Part shown: piece by piece, positions 45,600-61,300 of the stretch
How the letters are laid out: the number at the start of each line of letters is the position of its first letter
How positions within the stretch are numbered: the stretch's first letter is position 1
Assembly: GCF_032854445.1 (NCBI RefSeq)
Contig: NC_088306.1
Span: 1,786,873 to 1,850,872 of the forward strand
Origin: Liolophura sinensis
Taxonomy: Eukaryota; Mollusca; Polyplacophora; Chitonida; Chitonidae
Direction: 5' to 3'
Length of the DNA stretch: 64,000 nt
Notes under the pieces: generated by a model
The model's database searches: none
Told to the model about the DNA's origin: nothing
Seen by the model: the letters and a program-made list of their open reading frames with translations, nothing else
Program-made: the position numbers and the translations under genes

Positions 45600-46176
45600 T
45601 AAATTAGTGTATTTATTGAAATGAGCAATTGTTCTATTCACAAAGCAGTCATCTTTTCTGTGATCTTTTATTTCAATTAAGACTGCCTTGTGATTTCAAA
45701 AGTTTGTGATAGCCGGGTATTGTGAAATCTTGTGTATTTGATAACAATCTGGGAATAAATTCAACAATTTTCAAAAAAAAAAAAAAAATACTTTGACATG
45801 CTCTCAGACGAACACTCTTGAAACTTTCTCATTTTCCTTTGACGATTGGAAGTGAACCAAAATGTAAACTTTAAAAAAGACAAAGAAACTGAAGTTTAGG
45901 CTATAATTATTTCCAATGTTACAAATGCTGTTAAATGTGGAAAAATTATCTATTAATGAAAAGTGTTGCAAAATGATACCGTACGGTCTTAACACTTTCG
46001 TCAAATACGTTATGAAACTTTAAGAAAGGATAAGCGTCAAGATTTTTGGAACAAATAACGATTAGTTCTGGTGTGTTTTATCAGAAAACCAAACAAAATG
46101 ACAAAAAAAGAGAAAAAAAACCCCCAACTCTACAACTTTACATAAATGATATAAAAACAAGAAAAGAAATAGCAAA

Positions 46177-46258
46177 TGGCAGCGGTGGGATTCGAACCCA
46201 CGCCTCCGAAGAGACTGGTGCCTTAAACCAGCGCCTTAGACCGCTCGGCCACGCTACC
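46177..46258 (-). tRNA. tRNA-Leu(AAG)
   Basis: 82 nt. Arms pair as expected; anticodon arm CTGGT-TTAAGGC-ACCAG gives AAG; T arm GTGGG-TTCGAAT-CCCAC is intact. Serves as the reference - copy; a T-rich stretch lies downstream on the minus strand. Confidence 0.9.
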
Positions 46259-46697
46259 AGATCCCATAGCCGTAGCGATCGCGTGTGATTTTAAAAGCTA
46301 AGAGGCATTCGGAAAGTGGCTCCTCTTAAGGAATAAAGGCAGGTGTGACGTTATTGTTGGGTGATACATAAGTATATTTTCCACTGTGATTTGTGTAAGC
46401 TGTTAAAATATATGAGAATTTAGTTTGTTTTTGAGAAAAAGTTTACTGCAGATGGGTGCTATGAGCCTATCCGCCATAGCGAAGGTTATCTTTGCAAAAT
46501 GTTATGATTTTACGTCCAGAAGCAAGAGCTGAACAATGTTAATGCATGACAAGTTGACTTCGCCAACTTCACCAGATGAATTTTCAGAAAAAGTAGTGTG
46601 CTCTTGTGTAACATATAAAATATGTGCTAACCGGAAGTGGTGTAGGCCTTGTTAGAATGTCAGTGTTTTTTTTTCCGAAATGTTCAATCATCTGTCA

Positions 46698-46779
46698 GGT
46701 AGCGTGGCCGAGCGGTCTAAGGCGCTGGTTATAGGCACCAGCCTCTCAGGAGGCGTGGGTTCGAATCCCACCGCTTCCA
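46698..46779 (+). tRNA. tRNA-Leu(UAG)-like, A33 subfamily
   Basis: 82 nt; loop TATAGGC has A instead of the invariant U33 next to anticodon TAG. The 3' acceptor strand is cgcttcc, giving a U3-U70 mismatch. Followed by a T8 run (Pol III terminator). Function doubtful. Confidence 0.7.
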
Positions 46780-47222
46780 TACGGGTTTTTTTTAATTTTT
46801 GGCTTGAAATAAAATACGTGCTTTGCTTTGCCGAATACTTTGACATGCTCTCAGACGAGCACTCTTGAAACTTTCTCATTTTCCTTTGACGATTGGAAGT
46901 GAACCAAAATGTAAACTTTAAAAAAGACAAAGAAACTGAAGTTTAGGCTATGTCTATTTCCATTGTTACCAATGCTGTTAAATGTGGAAAAGATATCTAT
47001 TAATGAAAAGTGTTGCAAAATGATACCGTACGGTCTTAACACTTTCGTCAAATACGATATGAAACTTTAAGAAAGGAGAAGCGTCTGGATATTTGGAACA
47101 AATAACGATTAGTTCTGGTGTGTTTCATCAGAAAACCAAACAAAATGACAAAAAAAGAGACAAAAAAACCCCAACACCACAGCTTTACATAAATGATATG
47201 AAACAAGAAAAGAAATAGCAAA

Positions 47223-47304
47223 TGGCAGCGGTGGGATTCGAACCCACGCCTCCGAAGAGACTGGTGCCTTAAACCGGCGCCTTAGACCGCTCGGCCACGC
47301 TACC
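47223..47304 (-). tRNA. tRNA-Leu(AAG), one anticodon-stem mismatch
   Basis: 82 nt; as the reference copy, but the anticodon stem starts CCGGT instead of CTGGT, giving a C-A mismatch. Confidence 0.75.
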
Positions 47305-48032
47305 AGATCCCATTACCGTAGCGATCGCGTGTGATTTTAAAAGCTAAGAGGCATTCGGAAAGTGGCTCCTCTTAAGGAATAAAGGCAGGTGTGACGTTGT
47401 TGTTGGGTGATACACCAGTATATTGTCCACTGTGATTTTTGTAAGCTGTTAAAATATATGAGAGTTTAGTTTCTTTTTGAAAAAAAGTTTACTGCAGATG
47501 GCTGCTATGAGCCTATCCACCATAGCGAAGGTTAGGTTTGCAAAATGTTATGATTTTACGTCCAGAAGCAAGAGTCGAACAATGTTAATGCATGACAAGT
47601 TGACTTCGCCAACTTCACCAGATGAATTTTCAGAAAAAGTAGTGTGCTCTTGTGTAACATATAAAATACGTGCTAACCGGAAGTGGTGTAGGCCTTGTTA
47701 GAATGTCAGTGTTTTTTTTTCCGAAATGTTCAATCATCTGTCAGTTATGAGAGTTTAGTTTGTTTGTGAGAAAAAGTTTAATGCAGATGGCTGCTATGAG
47801 CCTATCCGCCATAGCGAAGGTTGGCTTTGCAAAATGTTATGATTTTACGTCCAGAAGGAAGAGTCGAACAATGTTAATGCATGACAAGTTGACTTCGCCA
47901 ACTTCACCAGATGAATATTCAGAAAAAGGAGTGAGCTCTTGTATAAACTATAAAATATGTGCTAACCGGAAGTGGTGTAGGCCTTGTTAGAATGTCAGTG
48001 TTTTTTTTTCCGAAATGTTCAATCATCTGTCA

Positions 48033-48114
48033 GGTAGCGTGGCCGAGCGGTCTAAGGCGCTGGTTATAGGCACCAGCCTCTCTGGAGGCGTGGGTTCGAA
48101 TCCCACCGCTTCCA
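48033..48114 (+). tRNA. tRNA-Leu(UAG)-like, A33 subfamily
   Basis: Same A33 and cgcttcc changes as 46698-46779. The variable arm differs by one base (ctctctggagg for ctctcaggagg). Confidence 0.7.
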
Positions 48115-58712: not shown

Positions 58713-58793
58713 GGTAGCGTGGCCGAGTGGTCTAAGGCGCTGGTTTTAGGCACCAGTCTCTCAGGAGGCGTGGGTTCGAATCCACCGCTGCCA
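58713..58793 (+). pseudogene. tRNA-Leu(UAG) with 1-nt T-stem deletion
   Basis: 81 nt: ttcgaatccaccgc lacks one C of the T stem. The rest equals the best + copy. Confidence 0.68.
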
Positions 58794-59232
58794 TACGTGG
58801 TGTATTTTTTATTTCTTGCTTGATATAAAATACGTGCTTTGTTTTGCCGAATACTTTGACATGCTCTCAGACGAGCACTCTTGAAACTTTCTCCATTTTC
58901 CTTTGACGATTGGAAGTGAACCAGAATGTAAACTTTAAAAAAGACAAAGAAACTGAAGTTAGGCTATAATTATTTCCATTGTTACAAATGCTGTTAAATG
59001 TGGAAAAATTATCTATTAATGAAAAGTGTTGTAAAATGATATCGTACGGTCTTAACACTTTCGTCAAATACGATATGAAACTTTAAGAAAAGAAGAAGCG
59101 TCTGGATTTTGGACAAATAACGATTAGTTCTGATGTGTTGCATCAGGAAACCAAACGAAATGACGAAAAAGACAAACAAAACCAACTCCACAACTTTACA
59201 TAAATGATATAAAACAAAAAGAAAATAGCAAA

Positions 59233-59304
59233 TGGCAGCGGTGGTATTCGAACCCACGCCTCCGAAGAGACTGGTGCCTGAAACCAGCGCCTTAGACCGC
59301 TCGG
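59233..59304 (-). tRNA. tRNA-Leu with anticodon CAG
   Basis: The + strand reads gtgcctgaaacc, so the minus loop is TTCAGGC: anticodon CAG instead of AAG by one A-to-C change at position 34. It also has a G-A mismatch in the T stem (ggtggtattc). Confidence 0.72.
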
Positions 59305-60043
59305 CCACGCTACCAGATCCCATAACCGTACCGATCGTGTGTGATTTTAAAAGCTAAGAGGCATTCGGAAAGTGGCTCCTCTTAAGGGAATAAAGGCAGG
59401 TGTGACGTTATTTTTGGGTGATACACCAGTATATTGTCCACTGTGATTTGTGTAAGCTGTTAAAATATATGAGTTTAGTTTGTTTTTGAGAAAAAGAGTT
59501 TACTGCAGATGGCTGCTATGAGCCTATCCGCCACAGCGAAGGTTAGCTTTGCAAAATGTTATGATTTTACGTCCAGAAGCAAGAGCTGAACAATGTTAAT
59601 GCATGACAAGTTGACTTCGCCAACTTCACCAGATGAATTTTCAGAAAAAGGAGTGTGCTCTTGTGTAACCTATAAAATATGTGCTAACCGGAAGCGGTGT
59701 ACGCCTTGTAAGAATGCCAGTGTTTTTTTTTTCCGAATTGTTCAATCATCTGTCAGTTATGAGAGTTTAGTTTGTTTTTGAGAAAAAGTTTACTGCAGAT
59801 GGCTGTTATGAGCCTATCCACCATAGCGACGGTTAGCTTTGCAAAATGTTATGATTTTACGTACAGAAGCAAGAGTCGAACAATGTTAATGCATGACAAG
59901 TTGACTTCACCAACTTCACCAGATGGATTTTCAGAAAAAGGAGTGAGCTCTTGTATAACCTATAAAATATGTGCTAACCGGAAGTGGTGTAGGCCTTGTT
60001 AGAATGTCAGTGTTTTTTTTCCGAAATGTTCCACCATCTGTCA

Positions 60044-60125
60044 GGTAGCGTGGCCGAGTGGTCTAAGGCGCTGGTTTTAGGCACCAGTCTCTCAGGAGGC
60101 GTGGGTTCGAATTCCACCGCTGCCA
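60044..60125 (+). tRNA. tRNA-Leu(UAG)
   Basis: 82 nt; one T-stem G-U pair (ttcgaattccacc), otherwise canonical, with a T run downstream. Confidence 0.82.
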
Positions 60126-60566
60126 TACGCGGTGTTTTTTTTTATTTCTTGCTTGATATAAAATACGTGCTTTGTTTTGCCGAATACTTTGACATGCTCT
60201 CAGACGAGCACTCTTGAAACTTTCTAATTTTCCTTTGACGATTGGAAGTGAACCAGAATGTAAATTTTAAAAAAGACAAAGAAACTGAAGTTTAGGCTAT
60301 AATTATTTCCATTGTTACAAATGCTGTTAAATGTGGAAAAATTGACTATTAATGAAAAGTGATGTAAAATGATACCGTACGGTCTTAACACTTTCGTCAA
60401 ATACGATATGAAACTTTAAAAAGGAGAAGCGTCTGGATTTGGAACAAATAACGATTAGTTCTGATGTGTTTCATCAGGAAACCAAACGAAATTACAAAAA
60501 AGACGAACAAAACCCCAACTCCACAACTTTACATAAATGATATAAAACAAAAAAGGAAATAGCAAA

Positions 60567-60647
60567 TGGCAGCGGTGGGATTCGAACCCACGCCTCCGAA
60601 GAGACTGGTGCTTAAACCAGCGCCTTAGACCGCTCGGCCACGCTACC
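60567..60647 (-). pseudogene. tRNA-Leu(AAG) with anticodon-loop deletion
   Basis: 81 nt: gtgcttaaacc lacks one base, leaving a six-base anticodon loop (TTAAGC). Confidence 0.7.
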
Positions 60648-61300
60648 AGATCCCATAACCGTATCGATCGCGTGTGATTTTAAAAGCTAAGAGGCATTCG
60701 GAAAGTGGCTCCTCTTAAGGAATAAAGGCAGGTGTGACGTTATTGTTGGGTGATACACCAGTATATTTTCCACTGTGATTTGTGTAAGCTGTTAAAATAT
60801 ATGAGAGTTTAGTTTGTTTTTGAGAAAAAGTTTAATGCAGATGGGTGCTATGAGCCTGTCCGCCATAGCGAAGGTTAGCTTTGCAAAATGTTATGTTTTT
60901 ATGTCCAGAAGCAAGAGCTGAACAATGTTAATGCATGACAAGTTGACTTCGCCAACTTCACCAGATGAATTTTCAGAAAAAGGAGTGTGCTCTTGTGTAA
61001 CCTATAAAATATGTGCTAACCGGAAGCGGTGTACGCCTTGTAAGAATGTCAGTGTTTCTTTTTTCCCCGAAATGTTCAATCATCTGTCAGTTATGAGAGT
61101 TTAGTTTGTTTTTGAGAAAAAGTTTACTGCAGATTGGCTGTTATGAGCCTATCCACCATAGCGACGGTTAGCTTTGCAAAATGTTATGATTTTACGTACA
61201 GAAGCAAGAGTCGAACAATGTTAAAAACATGACAAGTTGACTTCGCCAACTTCACCAGATGAATTTTCAGAAAAAAGGAGTGAGCTCTTGTATAACCTAA

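Follow-up and report, generated by a model that had tools for sequence, protein, structure and literature searches.

A 64,000-nucleotide stretch of the Liolophura sinensis genome (the window; contig NC_088306.1, positions 1,786,873 to 1,850,872 of the forward strand) contains a tandem array of tRNA-Leu-like genes that is bounded on its left by an L1-like long interspersed nuclear element (LINE). From the window and from searches of the whole assembly (609 Mb, 632 contigs), we consider it likely that this array has been changed by duplication and exchange of blocks, and that an L1-superfamily LINE uses it as a landing zone, inserting ~100 bp downstream of genes transcribed by RNA polymerase III (Pol III). 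Element, array and flanks occupy the following positions in the window.

39649..39984, + strand: left-flank Gln repeat, a tRNA-Gln pair (ARAGORN, Rfam)
40694..45788, + strand: L1-like LINE (bounds approximate), ending in poly(A)
40767..42107, + strand: first open frame of the LINE, 446 amino acids, with CCHC-type cysteine motifs seen by eye
42139..45493, + strand: second open frame region of the LINE, with apurinic/apyrimidinic (AP) endonuclease, reverse transcriptase and zf-RVT, in two frames
46176..60648, both strands: alternating tRNA-Leu-like array, 23 genes (ARAGORN, Rfam)
61301..61500, no strand: 200 N in a row, bounding the array on the right
62181..62521, + strand: right-flank Gln repeat, a tRNA-Gln pair (ARAGORN, Rfam)

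The LINE went unmentioned in the initial annotation of the window, which had put the left edge of the array at 45789; that position proved to be where the LINE ends 3' and not a natural end of the array. The element carries AP-endonuclease (PF03372), RVT_1 and zf-RVT domains, and among solved structures its reverse transcriptase is closest to human LINE-1 ORF2p (5e-55, versus 2e-18 for R2). The first open frame matched no Pfam family at E <= 0.01. In the window copy, whose 5' end lies ~50 bp short of full-length copies, the second open frame is broken into two frames; elsewhere, at least one copy shows long open frames (460 and 1214 codons). Five further copies lie in arrays on contigs C7 and C5, and the six copies from these three array regions are mutually 98.3-99.6% identical and all end in poly(A). 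Across the genome, exact target site duplications of 10-16 bp were found at 10 of 34 scored junction pairs. The endonuclease type, a reverse transcriptase closest to L1, the poly(A) ends and the target site duplications together place the element among the L1-superfamily retrotransposons without long terminal repeats (non-LTR). By the look of its reverse transcriptase, it may have an affinity to the Tx1 clade.

Copies of this LINE sit at a characteristic place. A genome search returned 110 candidates, of which the best 40 were scored (all 92-100% match); both flanks were fetched for 35 of these, the other five being already known, and for 36 of the 40 the position of the 5' end could be determined. 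In 25 of the 36 located copies, a tRNA or 5S rRNA gene on the same strand ends 33-230 bp upstream (median 106 bp), and in 22 of those 25 the distance is 40-180 bp, which matches the form of tRNA-gene targeting described for the Dictyostelium element TRE3 (~40-150 bp downstream, in the same direction). The newly fetched copies among the 25 follow 19 tRNAs called by ARAGORN, one tRNA called by Rfam only (31 bits) and two 5S genes; the remaining three are the known copies C7a, C5b and C5c. Together the upstream tRNAs represent 12 amino acids (Asp, Cys, Glu, Gly, His, Ile, Leu, Phe, Pro, Ser, Thr and Tyr). The two 5S cases (5S repeats L029 and L048, on contig C6 near 20.47-20.49 Mb) have LINE copies 132 and 82 bp downstream. 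No opposite-strand tRNA lies in the 250 bp upstream of any of the 36 located copies. A 41st copy from outside the scored set (C5a) has a degenerate tRNA-Leu ~100 bp upstream, as judged by eye. On the 3' side, ARAGORN found a tRNA within 260 bp in 6 of 35 copies; three of these six are opposite-strand tRNA-Ser genes of one convergent Ile/Ser locus family, in which the LINE lies downstream of both genes.

Such a distribution could arise if the LINE inserted anywhere and survived mainly in tRNA and 5S arrays, where it does no harm. Many of the 40 copies are indeed clustered on few contig stretches, which repeats or tolerance could explain, and several array tRNAs were already defective. Survival alone, however, predicts copies in either direction and at any place in a spacer, whereas the direction was that of the upstream gene in 25 of 25 copies. 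A random point with a random direction in the array spacers meets the same-strand 33-230 bp rule with a frequency of 15.5% on C7 and 12.7% on C5, so survival would lead one to expect 13-15% in these two arrays, against the 25/36 observed. The binomial chance of at least 25 of 36 at a generous 20% is ~2e-10, a figure that ignores relatedness among copies and uses a distance range taken from the data. We regard selective survival as an unlikely explanation.

A second alternative is that one spacer holds a DNA sequence that the LINE recognizes, and that its copies then multiplied through amplification of the array. Two C7 copies have a common 3' flank and are situated in a 12.35-kb block duplicated at 98.6%, and the flanks of copies 41 and 43 are 98.7% identical, as this alternative would have it. 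All ten exact target duplications, however, differ in sequence, which led us to reject a sequence-specific target, and the neighbors span 12 tRNA amino acids as well as 5S rRNA. Copies 28, 38 and 54 entered one homologous spacer at three different points. For copies 32 and 44 the site may be the same one. Because target duplications and entry points differ, we conclude that what determines the place of insertion is its distance and direction relative to the gene, not a fixed sequence, and we give the single-spacer alternative very little credence.

Several observations nonetheless weigh against downstream landing as a general rule, beginning with the 11 of 36 located copies that miss it. Beside copy 28, a tRNA-Ile fragment was seen by eye where a gene would be expected, and the flank of this copy is 91% identical to those of two copies that follow the rule. 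For copies 35 and 59 the distance is 465 bp and 909 bp, and for copies 41 and 43, whose near-identical flanks make them one event, it is 476 bp. No tRNA was found for copies 47, 55 and 57, and Rfam, run on the copies lacking one, returned known tRNAs plus one sub-threshold cis-regulatory match (PYLIS_3, E 0.36) that we take as chance. Copy 49 misses the rule with a flank read in part, C7b misses it within a duplicated block (a segmental duplication), and the window copy misses it on its 5' side, which lies in a Gln repeat. For four more copies, which lie in a tRNA-Asn array, the 5' end could not be placed. Beyond individual copies, the 40 that were scored are the best matches of 110 rather than a random sample, related flanks among some of them mean fewer events than copies, distance is uninformative within 5S repeats and dense arrays, and the control consisted of random points in the C7 and C5 arrays rather than a matched transposon.

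The window copy also marks a boundary between two arrays. tRNA-Gln genes flank the Leu array on both sides (at 39649 and 39911 on the left and at 62181 and 62449 on the right), so that the Leu array is enclosed by a Gln array, to which the LINE joins it on the left. The 3' junction of the LINE follows a tRNA-Leu(UAG) position of the array unit at ~55 bp, which fits the targeting rule, and its 5' junction precedes a tRNA-Gln position of the flanking Gln repeat by ~17 bp. This joint is best read as an insertion accompanied by loss of the intervening DNA, or as an exchange between LINE copies. On C7 (loci L009, L017 and L019), one end of the duplicated 12.35-kb block coincides exactly with the 5' end of a LINE. 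Together, the Gln/Leu joint in the window and this C7 block suggest that LINE insertion or recombination shapes tRNA arrays.

Position and direction, as seen in the sampled copies, indicate that the LINE inserts ~100 bp downstream of Pol III genes, in gene direction, behind any tRNA gene and also behind 5S genes. A factor located on the Pol III gene or immediately behind it, either TFIIIB/TFIIIC or the polymerase as it terminates, may bring the LINE complex to the site, where the LINE endonuclease would then nick a loosely chosen A/T-rich target. The habit may extend beyond this family. Distant relatives (~40-75% at the protein level) occur in arrays on C5, C7 and C12; the four C5 blocks and the single C12 block share the strand of all local tRNAs, and the relative on C7 is downstream of a same-strand tRNA. 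The presence of these relatives in the same arrays suggests a whole clade with a Pol III landing habit. A wider proposal is that Pol III-guided insertion arose in an animal L1-superfamily lineage, whose members land ~100 bp behind tRNA genes of every type and behind 5S genes, oriented like the gene; this would be convergent with TRE3 and would seed and reshape tRNA arrays. For this proposal we see the case for and against as evenly balanced.

TRE3 is an L1-type element that inserts downstream of tRNA genes, and this downstream form of tRNA targeting is placed in dictyostelids (PMC5911963, PMC5006619); TRE elements use a -1 frameshift for the second open frame (PMC5911963). As far as these descriptions go, the chiton LINE resembles TRE3 in being L1-type, in having two open frames with AP-endonuclease, reverse transcriptase and zinc finger in the same order, and in its A-tail. 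It differs in its host, L. sinensis with a 609-Mb genome, and in lying also beside 5S rRNA genes. In its targeting habit, the LINE works like TRE3. In animals, the zebrafish non-LTR element Dewa is reported in the tRNA-Leu spacer (PMC3706591), and so, like the chiton LINE, is a non-LTR retrotransposon found in tRNA-Leu spacers. Dewa, a member of the Tx1 clade, differs by its description in that the chiton LINE has tRNA neighbors of 12 amino acids plus 5S genes and differing target duplications; with 11 amino acids besides Leu, and 5S, the latter is not restricted to tRNA-Leu spacers.

In animals and protists, tRNA genes also serve as targets for the sequence-specific elements NeSL-1_TV (tRNA-Pro), LIN15_SM (tRNA-Arg) and LIN25_SM (tRNA-Glu) (PMC4640811) and for the Dada DNA transposons (PMC3706591), and this the chiton LINE shares with them. 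Each of these uses one tRNA type and site, whereas the site here is set by distance; NeSL-type elements have another endonuclease, in contrast to the AP type found here. The abstract openings and passages returned by our literature search name no animal element with a habit of landing downstream of Pol III genes. A LINE that targets Pol III genes by distance and in a set direction offers a model for safe genome insertion. Should such targeting hold for an animal too, it becomes possible to ask if unrelated LINEs are guided by common host factors, and in what way retrotransposons influence the number of tRNA genes.

We then turn to the array itself. ARAGORN called 23 tRNA-Leu-like genes (12 on the - strand and 11 on the +) in strict strand alternation, all 23 of which reach the Rfam tRNA gathering score; since the run of 200 N bounds the array on the right, this is the count up to that run. 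Genes on the + strand have a UAG anticodon and those on the - strand have AAG, except for one with CAG and one with a 6-base anticodon loop. Convergent gaps measure 438-446 bp, and divergent gaps fall into three classes of 436-440, 722-730 and 1013-1017 bp. The initial annotation had described 23 alternating genes, convergent gaps fixed at 439-447 bp and divergent gaps of about 440, 728 or 1015 bp, all of which these measurements reproduce; its assignment of AAG to the - strand holds apart from the two exceptions. The array is thus a tandem tRNA gene array in the sense of repeated units with recognizable tRNA genes, each unit consisting, on our reading, of one UAG and one AAG gene in opposite directions. 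A published parallel is the tandem Ser-Tyr-Tyr tRNA cluster of Arabidopsis (PMC12308677), which likewise consists of tandemly repeated multi-tRNA units. The chiton array differs in its oppositely directed Leu isoacceptors, its inner 287-bp sub-repeat and its many defective copies.

The 11 complete units are 93-99% identical to one another. Units 1-3 are 99.2% identical, and units 4/8 (97.0%), 5/9 (97.6%) and 6/7 (98.3%) form pairs, in agreement with the whole-unit amplification that had been proposed. A second array of the same plan lies on contig C7 (32 tRNAs in 50 kb by ARAGORN), with alternation that is regular over the first 26 tRNA calls and irregular toward the end. The identity of the units and this same-plan array exclude chance as the source of the arrangement. 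They also bear on whether the array is an assembly artefact with duplicated or reordered units, a suspicion raised by the N run touching its right edge and by the high similarity of the units. Most unit pairs differ by 3-7%, however, and carry private tRNA defects, and the second array is on another contig; we find an artefact quite improbable.

Divergent gap size follows from the copy number (1-3) of a sub-repeat of ~287 bp that lies directly upstream of the + gene.

46411..46697, + strand: sub-repeat reference copy, 287 bp, directly upstream of the first UAG tRNA (blastn)
54881..55742, + strand: sub-repeat triplet
56506-57371: second sub-repeat triplet

By blastn the window array has 23 copies, in the order 1,2,2,1,2,1,2,3,3,2,2 and, in the last divergent gap, at least 2, the last copy being truncated by the N run; the order is that given in the initial annotation, for a unit there put at 288 bp. 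The C7 array has 13 consecutive doublets followed by single or partial copies. Within the window, distal and proximal copies tend to form two classes, each 94.9% identical within and 93.1% identical between classes; the corresponding values on C7 are 97.5% (distal) and 96.2% (proximal) within and 94.7% between. Because the copies form these classes, the doublet is probably older than most unit copies. The single and triple states look secondary, since the doublet is common to the window and C7 arrays, although the signal is mixed: of the window's three single copies, one (S4) is clearly a chimera of distal and proximal sequence, another (S1) resembles distal copies at each of six diagnostic columns, and the third (S6) carries a mixed signal. 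A simple distal/proximal crossover behind every single copy was rejected, as only S4 fits; secondary recombination likely underlies the singles. Of the earlier proposal that a sub-repeat expands on one side only, a separate sub-repeat on the divergent side stands, while repeated local expansion is not supported, the doublet being the standing state on C7.

Most tRNAs of the array are defective. We applied simple checks of stem pairing (without the variable arm), U33, T loop, A and B box patterns, discriminator base and length.

46176..46259, - strand: tRNA-Leu(AAG), all checks passed
48557..48640, - strand: tRNA-Leu(AAG), all checks passed
55743..55824, + strand: tRNA-Leu(UAG), all checks passed
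46698..49449, + strand: three copies sharing a T-T mismatch and U33>A; their units are 99.2% identical

Only these three of the 23 window copies pass every check, while 20 have at least one structural or promoter-box failure; in three copies (50417, 52273 and 60044) a box-pattern change is the sole failure. The 23 calls thus stand as tRNA-like sequences but not as sound genes, and by these sequence checks the copies would not generally be intact enough to act as tRNA genes. In the sister array on C7, 15 of 32 tRNAs pass. Defects common to several copies track the relationships of the units, as in the + copies at 46698, 48033 and 49368 (units 1-3), which have a common acceptor-stem T-T mismatch and U33>A. 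Because shared defects follow unit relationships, the array reads as one whose units spread by block duplication with broken tRNAs copied along. Growth and change would have come about through block duplication and exchange between repeats, with defective and sound tRNAs copied alike, so that most window copies now fail the checks. The array therefore offers a readable case of concerted evolution multiplying broken tRNA genes.

Nucleotide diversity is 0.043 for UAG and 0.025 for AAG tRNAs, compared with 0.035-0.057 for three spacer classes. Strong purifying selection on the tRNAs relative to the spacers is not seen in these values, and constraint on the tRNAs is weak at best. This bears on the idea that alternation is kept by selection, either for a hairpin or for paired transcription of two isoacceptors, as the strict alternation and near-constant convergent gaps might indicate. 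Both properties also follow from copying a two-gene unit, however, tRNA diversity is not clearly below that of the spacers, and 20 of the 23 copies have at least one failed check. As for the hairpins, the inverted pairs had been thought able to form them; the 82-bp tRNAs can pair (77/82 identical in one pair tested, ~440 bp apart), but these are the only arms. Flanks of UAG (+) and AAG (-) genes showed no significant similarity to each other, and the convergent spacer showed no palindrome beyond short weak matches. We hold selection for alternation to be highly unlikely. The flank comparison also disposes of an inverted duplication as the origin of the +/- pair.

Other tRNA-Leu loci of the genome have different layouts. 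C5 carries a tRNA-Leu(CAG) array with all genes on one strand (L011-L013 and L020-L024, C5:6575000-6651000), in which three LINE copies are young and four LINE blocks are older. Among single-gene loci, the tRNA-Leu genes of L014 and L015 pass the integrity checks, while that of L016 fails, being one base short.

Elsewhere in the window, long minisatellites occupy 11793-14891 (42-bp unit), 27320-28659 (20 bp), 2063-3058 (41 bp), 15609-16454 (57 bp) and 6113-6740 (29 bp). Two open frames at 30851-33580 match DUF229, a sulfatase-like family whose presence, together with the genome size, points to an animal host. A dispersed ~100-bp repeat that by eye looks like a tRNA-derived short interspersed nuclear element occurs at 38901-39001, 30069-30169, 22997-23097, 21677-21776 and 8248-8311. 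At 63558-63965 lies a transposase-like open frame, of Tc1/mariner type by eye, in an element copy that occupies 62.7-64 kb and is truncated by the end of the window.

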